Positions 13,001 to 30,801 of a DNA stretch of 31,753 nucleotides are shown here, piece after piece. The notes below the pieces were generated by a model. The model made no database searches and was not told where the DNA came from. It saw nothing but the letters and a program-made list of their open reading frames with translations. The position numbers and the translations under genes were made by a program. This DNA is from a virus, in IMG/VR virus record IMGVR_UViG_3300029309_000191, positions 1 to 31,753 of that record. The stretch is one strand, 5' to 3'. The stretch's first letter is position 1, and the number at the start of each line of letters is the position of its first letter.

Positions 13001-13628
13001 CGGAGACCTCCTTAACCTGCTTAGCTCGCTTTCTGGAGCCGAATCGGACTACCTCTCGGCGGTTCTTGGCCCTATGGCCTCCGCGACTGCTGCAGGCGGT
13101 AAGTTCGGTCTCGATGAGGTCGGCGTTTCTCTTAGCTTCGACGAGACTAACCCCAGGGTCGCAGAGTTCGCTAACAGCTACGCCCAGAGCTTTGCTAAGG
13201 AAGCCTCTAGAGCTTCGCTCCTCCGGGTCCGTTCGGTTATTTCTAGAGGTCTAGAGCAGGGTATTGGGGCGCAGGCTATCGCTAAGGAGCTAGAGACGGA
13301 CTACGCGTTTAGCCCACAGAGAGCGACGGTCGTAGCTCGTACCGAATCGGCTAGAGCTTTCGTCGAAGGCGAGCGGCTTGGTTGGTCGGAGTCCGGCGTA
13401 GTTCGCGGTAAGCAATGGAATCTAGCTCCTGGAGCTTGTCCCTTTTGCGAGCAAACCGCAATCCGTGGAACGTCGAAGGTCTTTAATTTAGACGAGCCTT
13501 TTTACGCGAACGGCGAGACCATTACCGCAGGAGGTAAGACGTATACGGTTAAATATGGCGACGTTCAAGGCGCGCCGCTTCATCCTAATTGCCGTTGTGA
13601 TATTACGGCGGTTCTAATTGAGGAATAA
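10092..13628 (+). CDS. Portal protein fused to MuF-type minor head protein, with inserted modules
   Basis: A GTG at 10077 is in frame, but the ATG at 10092 overlaps the terminase stop (TAATG) and has a GGAGAA site, giving 1178 residues. Residues about 1-440 are an HK97-type portal (RSIAAQPIRLYA, VSGVPVSLL, LGLDPNEQG). About 470-540 is a small beta domain (VEWRTEKGKYLGKIRRF). About 565-640 is a helical module (ERGIGAYQ, GSVRP, ARVNGFLHAL). About 660-715 and 728-875 are further modules (GLEWRKEHNRGG, SYFARHEVDK, YPSAGRIAWALWGGDAGNRW). From about 940 comes a MuF-like domain ending in C1116-P-F-C1119 and HPNC1167-R-C1169, a likely zinc site. Separate portal and MuF genes are usual; here one chain would place the minor head protein at the portal vertex. 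Confidence 0.92.
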   Translation: MLDRLRQAVGLKAKRDRLEYVRSTIKPEATYGSGRQREHQAAMLKLLSGYVYSAVMMNARSIAAQPIRLYASLETRANKHWATKSVSKSTTRYLKGDSQQRPAKSAMLGSNTGGDLVEIYDHPILDLLNRVSPFMDGYNFAVLRKTFLQVSGNEYLHPIIGPLGYPVELWVMPSQHVKILPTRDERMIEGYEYGIPPNQSKFLPDEVLHNLVPSPDDPLYGSGWVSAAAPAAGLLQSMDSYEKHLFENQARPDWGIFIKEHLNETQWNRMVSYLDANLRGNRNSGRPYIFEGGSDARPLQFSPRDLSFSDGEERKVETIAAVSGVPVSLLKANDPNLASAQVGFASYMRDTIHPYLVADAEFLNQQLLPLFGSLGEGLFLAYDNPVQEDDERISRVLMSEVSTGVRSINEARAELGLDPNEQGDELRVNGVPLDVIGQPPAIPAFGALSVPGEQAEKAVDSPGEKAERSEVRVGSFVEWRTEKGKYLGKIRRFKDSGTEPGTIGEGEATESDPIVFVQVYVRNEDGSFTPSDREAPVKLSRLTASKEPENVQEKAVSESVRESLKKKADEHNEEVGDAKSKRTNVRTLVAVYERGIGAYQSQPGSVRPQVSSAEQWAMARVNGFLHALKTGKFKRKPFDTDLLPESHPLSSKGEKAEKSELPYYKDYFTTLEEAEERAKELGCEGVHTAAGDAYGYDGLIYMPCDSHSSYEETVEAQQKKYEDIDFTPPKDVQEEAKRGLEWRKEHNRGGTEVGVARARDLSNGVSVSPDTIRRMTSYFARHEVDKEGEGFSPGEEGYPSAGRIAWALWGGDAGNRWSSSIRDRMDAEDDKGEKVTRRDDESLKECVARGMETLLGEGYDRDQAVAIAYSQCELKSVKTAFLTGMEPEMKKKAFSSMDGEVWPERSYEARKAIEDVEDFADYDAVDADEDVREGEARNPAQRIQKNLVKVFRSQVNQVVRALRGEKSFGPGDLLNLLSSLSGAESDYLSAVLGPMASATAAGGKFGLDEVGVSLSFDETNPRVAEFANSYAQSFAKEASRASLLRVRSVISRGLEQGIGAQAIAKELETDYAFSPQRATVVARTESARAFVEGERLGWSESGVVRGKQWNLAPGACPFCEQTAIRGTSKVFNLDEPFYANGETITAGGKTYTVKYGDVQGAPLHPNCRCDITAVLIEE

Positions 13629-13629
13629 A

Positions 13630-15660
13630 ATGGAAGACTTGAACCCGACCGAATACGGTCTTAAATCCGAAACTCCTACGGTATGGCGTGACCTAGCTAT
13701 TAAAAGCGTAGAGGTAGACCAGCCTAAAAGGTCGGTCGTCGCCTACATCACTACGGACCGGGTAGACGAAGAGGGAGAGGTAGTCGTTCCGGAGGGTATC
13801 GACTTCTCCCGATTCAAGAAGACCGGGACCGTCTTTTATAACCACGACTACGCGGCTCCCTGCGGAGTTTGCGTAAATATCCGTCACGCCGATAACGGGA
13901 TTATTGCGACTACTAAGTTCCCGGCTCGTCCGGAAGGCTACGAGGGTAAATGGCTCGCGGACGAAGTCTTCGCAATGTTCGCTTCAGACCCTCCTATTGT
14001 CCGTTCGTTCTCTATCGGCTTTGCCTATATCCAAACCCGACAACCGAACCAAAAAGACTTTAAGCGATACGGTACGGAGGAAATCAAAAGAATCGTCTCT
14101 AAAAGCCGTATCCTAGAATATAGCGTAGCTCCGCTCCCGATGAACGAGGACGCGTTAGCTACGCAGGTTTATAAGAAACTCAAGCAGGACGAGGAATCGT
14201 CCGAAATTGTTATTACTCCCCAGGCATCATCGGACTATCTAGATAGCGGTAGCGAACTCGCTAACGGTGCAGAGCTAGAAGCCATGACTCAGCCAGAGCG
14301 GTCTTATTTTATTCCTACTAAAGAAAAGGATTTACCTATGAGCGATGAACTCGCTAAAAAAATGATGGTAGACCTCAAGCCTGATATGACTCTGGGCGAA
14401 CTCCTTAACGCTATGTCTAGCGAAAAGGCGGACGAAGCAGAAGATAAGCGGGACGAGGTAGCCAAAGATGTGGCCTACGCTAAGGCAGACGAAGAAGAAA
14501 AAGAGAAAAAGAATAAGGAAGAAGACGAGGACAAAATGAAGTCCTTGGCGGCTGGCCTTTCTGAACTCGTCAAAAAGTCTGCTAACGAAGGTCGCCGACG
14601 CGTGGCCGCCGCTACTCCGGTCGTTACCGCTCCTTCTTACTCCGGTCGTCTTAAGAACCTTAAAGACCAGGAAACCGCTTACGGTCTCGGTCAGTTCTAC
14701 TTGTCAGCTATGGGCAATAAGTCCGCTGGTCAGTGGGTCCACGACCGTTACGGTATTAAGGCTCACGGCGAAACCGTGAACTCTCTCGGTGGCTTCCTCG
14801 TTCCGGAAGAACTGGAGCAAGCGATTATCGACCTCCGGGCCGACTTCGGTAAGTTCCGCGCAAATACTCGCGTTCTGAACATGAGCCGGGATACTCTGCT
14901 TATTAACCGTATTGCAGGTGGCCTTACCGCTTCCTTCGTCGGTGAAGGCTCCGCTATCTCCGAAACCGATGCCAGCTTTGACCAAGTTAGCCTCGTCGCT
15001 CGTAAATGCGCTACCTTGACCCGCTACTCCCGCGAACTCGCAGAAGATGCAGTTATTAACGTCGGAGACTTTATTAGTGGTGAAGTTGCACGAGCTTTCG
15101 CTAACAAGGAAGACGAAGCCGGGTTTAACGGCGATGGTACTTCTACTCACGGCGGTATCGTCGGTCTTAAGAGTGCAGTCGGCTCCGCCGGTACTCACCA
15201 GACCGGTGGCGTTCTTTCGGCTACTACTATCGCAGACCTTACTACCTTGGTCGGTAAGGCTCCGGAGTACGTCTTTACCCAGGGTCGTCCGAAGTTCTAC
15301 TTCTCTACCCAAACCTATCACACCGTCATCATGGACCTTATGGCCGATGCAGGCGGCAACACGGCTAGCATTCTTGCCGGAGGTATCGCGGCTCCGTCGC
15401 TCTTCGGTTACGAGGTCGTTCTTTCCGACGTTCTCTTGAAGGCTACCGCCACTAACACCATCTTCGGCTACTTCGGTGCCTTGGAGCTTGGTACTTCGAT
15501 GGGCGACCGTCGTCCTACCGAGATTGCGGTTAGTGAAGATCGTTACTTCGAATCCGACCAAATCGGCGTTCGCGGTACTACTCGCTTCGATATTAACTGC
15601 CACGACGTTGGCGACTCCTCCGAAGCCGGAGCGGTCGTTGCAATTAAGACGGCATCGTAA
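13630..15660 (+). CDS. Prohead protease - scaffold - HK97-type major capsid protein fusion
   Basis: The ATG at 13630 has an AGGA site and follows the portal stop by one base; 676 residues. Residues about 15-190 are an S78-type prohead protease: H72 in YNHDYAAPCG, S126/S128 in VRSFSIGF and the strand SRILEYSVAPLP. Residues about 237-330 are a Lys/Glu-rich scaffold-like coiled coil (EEEKEKKNKEEDEDK). About 340-676 are the HK97 major capsid fold (GGFLVPEE, FVGEGSAI, GFNGDGTSTHGGIVGL). An in-frame ATG at 14338 with its own AAGGA site could make scaffold-capsid alone. From there codons shift towards GAA, CTC, GGT and CGT, as expected for a very highly expressed product. The scaffold is presumably cleaved off by the protease during maturation. 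Confidence 0.95.
   Translation: MEDLNPTEYGLKSETPTVWRDLAIKSVEVDQPKRSVVAYITTDRVDEEGEVVVPEGIDFSRFKKTGTVFYNHDYAAPCGVCVNIRHADNGIIATTKFPARPEGYEGKWLADEVFAMFASDPPIVRSFSIGFAYIQTRQPNQKDFKRYGTEEIKRIVSKSRILEYSVAPLPMNEDALATQVYKKLKQDEESSEIVITPQASSDYLDSGSELANGAELEAMTQPERSYFIPTKEKDLPMSDELAKKMMVDLKPDMTLGELLNAMSSEKADEAEDKRDEVAKDVAYAKADEEEKEKKNKEEDEDKMKSLAAGLSELVKKSANEGRRRVAAATPVVTAPSYSGRLKNLKDQETAYGLGQFYLSAMGNKSAGQWVHDRYGIKAHGETVNSLGGFLVPEELEQAIIDLRADFGKFRANTRVLNMSRDTLLINRIAGGLTASFVGEGSAISETDASFDQVSLVARKCATLTRYSRELAEDAVINVGDFISGEVARAFANKEDEAGFNGDGTSTHGGIVGLKSAVGSAGTHQTGGVLSATTIADLTTLVGKAPEYVFTQGRPKFYFSTQTYHTVIMDLMADAGGNTASILAGGIAAPSLFGYEVVLSDVLLKATATNTIFGYFGALELGTSMGDRRPTEIAVSEDRYFESDQIGVRGTTRFDINCHDVGDSSEAGAVVAIKTAS
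14325..14340 (+). promoter_or_regulatory. Internal ribosome site and start for separate capsid translation
   Basis: AAAGGA at 14325-14330 lies 7 bases before an in-frame ATG (14338-14340) that begins MSDELAKKMMVDL, residue 237 of the fusion. This looks like the natural N-terminus of a scaffold-capsid protein. It would let the phage make far more capsid subunits than protease from a single gene. The alternative is that this is only a fortuitous in-frame Met and all capsid comes from proteolysis of the fusion. Confidence 0.55.
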
Positions 15661-29821: not shown

Positions 29822-29828
29822 AAGGAGG
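29822..29828 (+). promoter_or_regulatory. Ribosome binding site serving two overlapping starts
   Basis: AAGGAGG is followed by ATG at 29833 after 4 bases and by another ATG at 29837 after 8 bases, in a different frame. The 8-base spacing is nearer the optimum, so both the methyltransferase and the overlapping frame could be translated from the same site. Confidence 0.6.
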
Positions 29829-29832
29829 TTGC

Positions 29833-30801
29833 ATGAATGTTAATCATTTATCCCTATGCGCAGGTATTGGAGGAATCGATCTGGGACTTAAAAGAGTGGT
29901 CCGAGGTTTGCGAACGGTGGCTATGGTCGAAAGGGAAGTCTACGCCGTCTCGCTCTTGGTCTCTAAGATGGAAAAGGGACAATTGGATTCGTGCCCTATC
30001 TACCCAGACCTTTTACGATTCCCTTGGAAAAGATATCGAGGATTATTGGATATCATTAGCGGCGGATTCCCATGCCAGCCGTTCTCAATTTCCGGCTCCC
30101 GGAAATCTACTGAAGACCCTAGACATCTCTGGCCCCATATCGCCGAAGGTATCTCTATTTGCAGACCTAGATTCTGCTTCTTCGAAAATGTCGACGGCAT
30201 CGCGTCCGCAAAGTCTCCCGGCTACTACTCGGTTCTCCACCATGTCCTCAGCGACTTGGAAGAAATGGGTTACAGAGCAGAGGCAGGATGCTTTAGCGCG
30301 GAGGAAGTCGGCGCGCCTCACCTACGCAAGCGATGGTTCATCTTGGCCTACTCCGGACGTAACGATGAGACCGCACGAAGGGAACGTAAGACTTCTTCGG
30401 AAGGGAGTAGAAAAGGGAATGGAGAAGGCGGAAGCGGACGCGATGCTAGGACGGGACATAGCCAAACCGCAGGGAAAGCTACCGGCATGGCCGACTCCGA
30501 CGGTAGCGGAGGGAGGGAAAATCAGCTGCAGTCCAAACTTCGGGCAGATTGGTTTGAGCAATCATCCGAAAATACAAGGGACTCCGGAAAGGGAGAAGCA
30601 GGAGAAGTCCAAAAATGGCCTTCCTACCCATGGCAAGAACCTTACGGATGGGAAGAGCCGAGGGTTATTAAACCCGGATTGGGTCGATACCCTAATGGGA
30701 TTCCCAATAGGTTGGACCGACTTAGAGCTTTAGGAAACGCGGTCGTCCCAGAAGTAGCCGCTACGGCTTTTGTTCATTTACTTAGAAGATTGGAGGATTA
30801 G
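29833..30801 (+). CDS. C5 DNA cytosine methyltransferase
   Basis: A 322-residue protein with motifs in order: I (SLCAGIGGIDLGL, residues 7-19), IV (GGFPCQPFS, catalytic C81), VI (ENV, 118-120), VIII (GAPHLRKRWFILA) and X (LRALGNAVVP, 297-306). It transfers methyl from SAM to cytosine C5 of a specific sequence. The target-recognition region (about 180-280) is polar and Gly/Ser/Arg-rich, unusual in composition, and coincides with a second open frame. No restriction partner is present, so it is likely a solitary enzyme protecting phage DNA. It follows an intrinsic terminator and precedes a small gene and the replication gene. Confidence 0.95.
   Translation: MNVNHLSLCAGIGGIDLGLKRVVRGLRTVAMVEREVYAVSLLVSKMEKGQLDSCPIYPDLLRFPWKRYRGLLDIISGGFPCQPFSISGSRKSTEDPRHLWPHIAEGISICRPRFCFFENVDGIASAKSPGYYSVLHHVLSDLEEMGYRAEAGCFSAEEVGAPHLRKRWFILAYSGRNDETARRERKTSSEGSRKGNGEGGSGRDARTGHSQTAGKATGMADSDGSGGRENQLQSKLRADWFEQSSENTRDSGKGEAGEVQKWPSYPWQEPYGWEEPRVIKPGLGRYPNGIPNRLDRLRALGNAVVPEVAATAFVHLLRRLED
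29837..30733 (+). CDS. Overlapping 298-codon frame inside the methyltransferase gene (WPTP family)
   Basis: This frame lies wholly within the methyltransferase gene in the +1 phase. Its ATG is 8 bases after AAGGAGG. The protein has DSHASRSQFPAPGN near 78-91, TWKKWVTEQRQ with ARRKSARLTYASDGSSWPTP ending at 173, a second AWPTPTVAEGG near 217-227 and a C-terminus LNPDWVDTLMGFPIGWTDL. I recognise these boxes from unannotated phage proteins. Motif IV (GGFPCQP) corresponds to DSHASR, motif VIII (GAPHLRKRWFI) to SARLTYASDGSSW, and motif X DNA begins as the frame ends. A genuine overprinted gene, or a shadow kept open by methyltransferase conservation, are the two options. The function is unknown. 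Confidence 0.45.
   Translation: MLIIYPYAQVLEESIWDLKEWSEVCERWLWSKGKSTPSRSWSLRWKRDNWIRALSTQTFYDSLGKDIEDYWISLAADSHASRSQFPAPGNLLKTLDISGPISPKVSLFADLDSASSKMSTASRPQSLPATTRFSTMSSATWKKWVTEQRQDALARRKSARLTYASDGSSWPTPDVTMRPHEGNVRLLRKGVEKGMEKAEADAMLGRDIAKPQGKLPAWPTPTVAEGGKISCSPNFGQIGLSNHPKIQGTPEREKQEKSKNGLPTHGKNLTDGKSRGLLNPDWVDTLMGFPIGWTDLEL

Follow-up and report, generated by a model that had tools for sequence, protein, structure and literature searches.

The 298-codon reading frame at positions 29837-30733, which lies inside a C5-cytosine DNA methyltransferase gene of a virus, is a real gene and not a shadow of the gene that contains it. The window analyzed here is a whole virus record of 31,753 bases, and its kin are IMG/VR contigs. 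The locus very probably encodes a two-polypeptide C5-methyltransferase, in which a catalytic chain (alpha, with motifs I-VIII and X) and a second-frame chain (beta, with the target-recognition region and motif IX) would be made from near-coincident starts; enzymatic activity and synthesis of beta are predicted from the sequence. Because genes for an Erf-like annealing protein, a single-strand binding protein, and a primosomal protein surround it, the locus was placed in a replication module. All features are listed in Table 1.

Table 1. Features of the overlapping methyltransferase locus (positions are those of the window; the roles given for beta are putative)
Feature	Positions	Strand	Description	Basis
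Shine-Dalgarno-like AAGGAGG	29822-29828	+	4 nt before the alpha ATG, 8 nt before the beta ATG	Direct sequence
Tandem start ATGAATG	29833-29839	+	Alpha ATG at 29833 (frame 0), beta ATG at 29837 (frame +1)	
Alpha	29833-30801	+	C5-cytosine DNA methyltransferase catalytic subunit, 322 aa; motifs I-VIII and X, without motif IX	
Beta	29837-30733	+	Second-frame protein, 298 aa; proposed target-recognition/motif IX subunit	
Beta N-terminal part	29837-30343	+	Opposite alpha motifs I-VIII; constrained	dSN/dSS 0.23
Alpha motif IV, GGFPCQPFS	30061-30087	+	Contains the catalytic cysteine; second frame reads DSHASRSQF	Invariant in alpha homologs
Alpha motif VIII region, GAPHLRKRWFILA	30310-30348	+		Translation and alignment
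Beta TRD-like module, WPTPDVTMRPHEGN...KLPAWPTP	30344-30499	+	Common to otherwise diverged phages	
Second WPTP module of beta	30488-30664	+	Variable	Beta alignment A1
Beta motif-IX-like box, LLNPDWVDTLMGFPIGWTDL	30665-30724	+		Regular expression and alignment to the motif IX region of Rita gp76
Alpha motif X, IPNRLDRLRALGNAVVP	30700-30750	+	Frame 0 again; overlaps the beta end	Translation and alignment A2

As originally described, the second frame is an uninterrupted ORF within the methyltransferase gene (ATG...TAG); it is in +1 relative to the alpha ORF and lies wholly within it. All second-frame motifs quoted in the original prediction (DSHASR, ARRKSARLTYASDGSSW, two WPTP boxes, and LMGFPIGWTDL) were found. 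Its reading of these motifs as out-of-frame versions of methyltransferase landmarks was right but incomplete, since the last box does not merely precede motif X; it is a motif-IX-like box that is missing from frame 0. The alpha chain was assigned to phrog_363 and matches PF00145 over residues 5-189 (E=1.1e-32; 114 bits vs. a cut-off of 22). Motifs I, IV (PCQ), VI (ENV), VIII, and X expected of PF00145 members are present in the alpha frame, and motif IX was not found in the same chain. In a canonical C5 methyltransferase, one chain carries motifs I-VIII, a variable target-recognition region (TRD), motif IX, and motif X in this order; motifs I-VIII and X make up the large domain, and the TRD and motif IX the small domain (PMC3404938). 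A regular expression for motif IX matched 1 of 172 alphas, this one (L095) being a single-frame variant, and 159 of 169 betas, several of the remainder being near-variants. The beta box stops where alpha motif X begins, which is its canonical place. Searched alone against PDB, Pfam, and NCBIfam, the box gave no significant match; it is too short, and the argument for the identity of beta therefore rests on longer homology.

Both parts of the locus have relatives in single-frame enzymes. In gp76 of Mycobacterium phage Rita, a single-frame protein of 389 aa with canonical order, residues 3-163 match the alpha profile (E=9.5e-45) and residues 236-352 (TRD-IX) match the beta profile (E=4.1e-9). 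A second, adjacent ORF holds TRD-IX-X in mycobacteriophages Peaches and Murai and in Arthrobacter phage TaylorSipht; it is annotated with an overlap of about 20 bases to the first or with none and matches phrog_1008 (E=1.7e-79, 4.3e-42, and 6.1e-62, respectively). The same family is matched by the whole window beta (E=9.1e-13), by its C-terminal half alone (positions 125-281 of the family, 3.3e-7), and by 9 of the 10 members of beta alignment A1. This family mixes overlapping betas, adjacent TRD-IX-X ORFs, and C-termini of single chains, the window beta being a distant member, and its annotation ('DNA methyltransferase') gives no mention of a second frame. In Paenibacillus alkaliterrae, a single ORF (L095:2176-3075, identical to L190/L226) covers motifs I-VIII, the TRD modules, and motif IX, and motif X lies in another frame; this layout was seen in only one of 52 genomes of the genus, and the ORF may be a naturally frame-joined variant or frameshift product, or a frameshifted copy. 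Therefore, the same enzyme appears to exist in three layouts: as a single chain, split into two neighbouring chains, and split into two chains whose coding sequences overlap. By these profile matches, the C-terminal half of the putative beta subunit and the TRD-IX part of single-chain phage C5 methyltransferases are homologous. What the original prediction missed is that, judged by this homology, the C-terminal half is no unrelated rider but the target-recognition/motif-IX part that the same predicted enzyme otherwise lacks.

Each beta contains 0 to 9 W.TP modules, and modules are common to otherwise diverged phages, which is consistent with exchangeable target recognition. Extra pieces were also observed elsewhere: a Paenibacillus bovis plasmid has additional WPTP and motif-IX-like pieces in a separate ORF downstream of the methyltransferase (L185:3045-3509), one long beta has a second motif-IX-like copy (L170:1484-3373), and a TRD-like fragment lies just upstream of the overlapped gene in L003. 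These pieces are possibly spare or displaced TRD cassettes. A silent store of TRD cassettes in the flanks was considered and rejected, the only flank match being that of L003/L007, which are identical in sequence. In addition, phages XFactor (L231) and Rita (L230), both of the genus Cheoctovirus, have an overlapping-frame and a single-chain methyltransferase, respectively, at the same site with the same upstream neighbours, which suggests that one layout was replaced by the other.

One alternative is that beta is made and selected as a separate overprinted protein with an unrelated role, such as a counter-defence factor. Its N-terminal half is constrained, and helices were confidently predicted at residues 18-56 and 138-163 (AlphaFold2 pLDDT 81-96) that are absent from the single-chain methyltransferases seen here. 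Moreover, the AlphaFold2 model of beta alone (pLDDT 61 overall) had no match by fold in the PDB, and a sequence profile search of beta against solved structures found none. Since no counterpart of the N-terminal half was found in the single-chain methyltransferases seen here, the two-subunit model leaves its constraint unexplained. Such an unrelated role is nevertheless very unlikely: the C-terminal half is co-linear as well as homologous with the TRD-IX of single-chain C5 methyltransferases, alpha has no motif IX, and split phage methyltransferases have the same part as an adjacent ORF. The N-terminal part is not universal, because beta starts inside alpha in other lineages, namely in gp50 of Paenibacillus phage Diva (L182) and in L168. 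The Diva ORF (L182:1288-1992) is annotated in RefSeq as a 'g49 internal gene' and named DNA methyltransferase; individual ORFs of this kind have thus already come to the attention of annotators.

In 137 of 146 distinct loci, the second-frame start lies no more than 8 nt from the frame-0 start. Most of these pairs (99) have the form NTGTG, mostly ATGTG, in which the beta start is followed two bases on by an alpha GTG; beta starts 5 nt upstream in 21 loci and 4 nt downstream in 10, as in the window. AUGUG has been found experimentally to initiate both frames in Escherichia coli, depending on Shine-Dalgarno spacing (PMC9841429). Beta might instead lack a start of its own: ribosomes translating alpha could undergo a programmed +1 frameshift close to the end of motif VIII and so produce a fused I-VIII-TRD-IX chain. 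A single-frame chain of this composition occurs in P. alkaliterrae, and Rita gp76 indicates that the order is workable in one chain. The L095 chain model, built from alignment A9 (alpha N-terminal fragments only; composites A6-A8 were set aside for misalignment of the TRD or of the motif VIII ends), folds as a C5-methyltransferase large domain with M.HhaI as the best PDB match (E=1.9e-14, about 184 columns); confidence was low over the TRD, and the TRD and motif IX were not confidently placed. However, frameshifting would need neither paired start codons nor a second frame that is open and constrained opposite motifs I-VIII, yet both are observed, and we hold this route to be very unlikely in comparison with initiation of beta at its own start.

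The original prediction estimated the chance of 298 stop-free codons as (61/64)^298; the arithmetic is right (6.1e-7), but an equal-base null is not the appropriate one. When the window gene's own synonymous codons were permuted, 5.7 stops were expected in the 298 second-frame codons vs. zero observed, and a stop-free frame arose in 5 of 20,000 shuffles (p = 0.00025). Under a null based on the codon usage of the phage, 8.7 stops were expected, and none of 20,000 shuffles was free of them. A chance ORF was ruled out by these synonymous-shuffle nulls, the result being suggestive for one gene and decisive across many. For the latter, 82 viral loci were used, consisting of 78 of L100-L179 together with the window, L180, L181, and L182. 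The last three came from a search with the second frame; L100-L179 were collected via the methyltransferase frame only, and the second frame was therefore unselected in their sampling. Over motifs I-VIII, zero second-frame stops were observed in 80 of the 82 loci vs. 206 expected by synonymous shuffling; the two loci set aside were L168, with a stop near codon 100, and L182, in which the second frame starts internally. Nearly all other second-frame stops lie downstream of the motif-IX box. The +2 frame was as expected (16.2 vs. 17.0), and the null is calibrated, since the flanking genes of the same loci had 565 stops in +1 vs. 569 expected. Ordinary numbers of second-frame stops were also seen in canonical single-frame methyltransferases, i.e., those of Klebsiella phage KP15 (14 vs. 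14.8 expected), Mycobacterium phage Rita (7 vs. 6.2), and PhiCh1 (7 vs. 3.4). Alpha is open across the TRD as well (0 stops vs. 443 expected), which is weaker evidence because the alphas were read as an open frame.

Both frames are under purifying selection. Changes were classified in both frames for 64 locus pairs, as counts and not with a codon model on a tree. Over motifs I-VIII, differences at codon positions 1, 2, and 3 follow frame 0 (0.118, 0.070, and 0.226), whereas from motif VIII to the beta end they follow the second frame (0.205, 0.079, and 0.126 at frame-0 positions). Codon position 1 of frame 0, which is position 3 of beta, is thus the most variable in the TRD region, the reverse of motifs I-VIII. 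The dSN/dSS of beta was 0.23 (0.17-0.29) opposite motifs I-VIII and 0.15 (0.10-0.23) opposite the variable region/TRD, compared with 1.02 (0.76-1.42) in the flanking-gene control, with few SS sites (196 and 127) and with some contigs, having been fetched twice, entering the pairs twice. In the short stretch past the beta stop, the ratio was 1.55, with a wide interval. The alpha ratio was weaker in the variable region (dNN/dSN 0.42 vs. 0.20). Comparison of 30344-30499 with L002 gave identities of 0.94 for beta and 0.42 for alpha, the 31 nucleotide differences being distributed as 3/1/27 over beta codon positions 1/2/3. In the variable region, it is the second frame and not the annotated one that is the more strongly conserved reading. 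A shadow ORF, open and similar only through conservation of the methyltransferase frame, has a negligible probability: the conservation of alpha motifs does dictate some of the second-frame sequence, but the absent stops, a dSN/dSS far below the flanking-gene control, the paired starts, the ordinary stops in single-frame enzymes, and a TRD module kept in beta while alpha changes all stand against it.

The original prediction had left two outcomes, either a protein family overprinted on phage methyltransferases or database entries that are shadows of them. The former is supported and the latter rejected: frequent stops were not found among homologs, the second frame is not unconstrained, and its homologs either form ORFs of their own or make up the C-terminal part of single-chain methyltransferases.

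Two-polypeptide C5 enzymes are already known. M.EcoHK31I requires both of its polypeptides for activity, and its beta gene is nested in the alpha gene in a different frame; the second chain of the window is likewise read from another frame of the same DNA. A secondary account assigns motifs I-VIII and X of this YGGCCR enzyme to the large polypeptide and motif IX to the small one only (PMC3404938, citing Lee et al. 1995), and the window, likened to it by description only, has the same distribution. In contrast, the beta of the window almost equals alpha in length and shares its start site. The TRD of M.EcoHK31I was placed on the large subunit in the published account (PMC3404938), whereas the TRD modules of the window appear to be in beta: the Rita gp76 TRD-IX aligns to beta and not to alpha, and beta is the more constrained frame there. 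M.AquI (CYCGRG) also consists of two polypeptides, with a natural break between motifs VIII and IX, its small subunit carrying both motif IX and motif X (PMC3404938). Unlike this enzyme, the window has motif X in alpha; the layout of Peaches, Murai, and TaylorSipht, with IX and X on the second chain, is M.AquI-like (L229, L232, and L236).

Tandem TRDs are known from multispecific C5 methyltransferases of the Bacillus phage SPR/phi3T type, in which several of them sit in the catalytic chain. The beta modules are likewise tandem and apparently exchangeable, but are located in the other reading frame. Hidden HNH endonucleases, which are inserted homing elements, are encoded out of frame in the methylases of phages ShiLan and Pacc40 (PMC11855218). 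The window protein is also encoded out of frame inside a phage methylase gene; it differs in that it has no insert or HNH match and spans nearly the whole enzyme. A Pfam search of the window second frame gave no family, hence no HNH domain, and an HNH or other mobile insert was rejected, there being no domain match and no insert. In a limited literature search, in which M.EcoHK31I was judged from a secondary account, no description of this phage overlap was found; the elements not found described are the apparent full-length double coding from coincident starts, the putative TRD in the second frame, and the breadth in phages.

Relatives of beta are encoded on at least 565 stretches of IMG/VR contigs. 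Among sampled bacterial genomes, phrog_1008 relatives were found in 28 of 399 Pseudomonadota and 4 of 399 Bacillota, and in most bacterial loci with both frames readable, alpha is without the motif IX box and the +1 ORF has it. We would give about even chances to a broader reading, namely that a broad viral class of C5 methyltransferases is obligatorily two-frame over some 250-470 codons, with overlapping AUGUG-type starts as a fixed, selected device, TRD cassettes swapped in the second frame, and the N-terminal half of beta as an overprinted extra part with its own function.

A second overlapping +1 ORF family, phrog_16143 (139 positions, 'DNA methyltransferase'), was observed inside C5 methyltransferases with motifs IX and X in frame 0. 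Its ORFs in Streptococcus phage CHPC1151 (L233:1337-1759) and Brochothrix phage BtpYZU03 (L238:1307-1777) are open for about 140-157 codons between flanking stops and weakly match the N-terminal part of phrog_1008. In these phages, the other frame may contribute a different segment. Besides, the window contains an antisense ORF of 299 codons (14704-15603, minus strand) inside a major-head-protein-like gene (13618-15660).

In the mechanism that we infer for the two-polypeptide enzyme, one Shine-Dalgarno sequence would serve both near-coincident starts (ATGAATG here). Initiation in frame 0 would yield alpha, the catalytic large domain with motifs I-VIII and X, and initiation in frame +1 would yield beta, whose C-terminal half would be the small domain with the target-recognition modules and motif IX; the N-terminal part of beta may have a function as well. 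Trans-complementation is known for C5 methyltransferases cut between motif VIII and the TRD (PMC3404938, PMC5944983). Alpha and beta would associate into one active enzyme, the exchangeable WPTP modules of beta would set the methylated sequence, and methylation would presumably protect phage DNA from host restriction.

The existence of long same-strand gene overlaps is disputed for both bacteria and dsDNA phages, and such overlaps are left uncalled by most pipelines. The present overlap is backed by independent lines of evidence from dozens of separate phage lineages and has a ready explanation, i.e., two enzyme halves. In many genomes, the half of this common phage enzyme that is expected to set the methylated sequence is either unannotated or listed as a 'hypothetical protein'. 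Expressing only the annotated frame may therefore yield inactive recombinant 'orphan' phage methyltransferases, and TRD-based specificity prediction on the annotated protein would read the wrong frame. Moreover, dual AUGUG initiation becomes testable in a natural, conserved setting.
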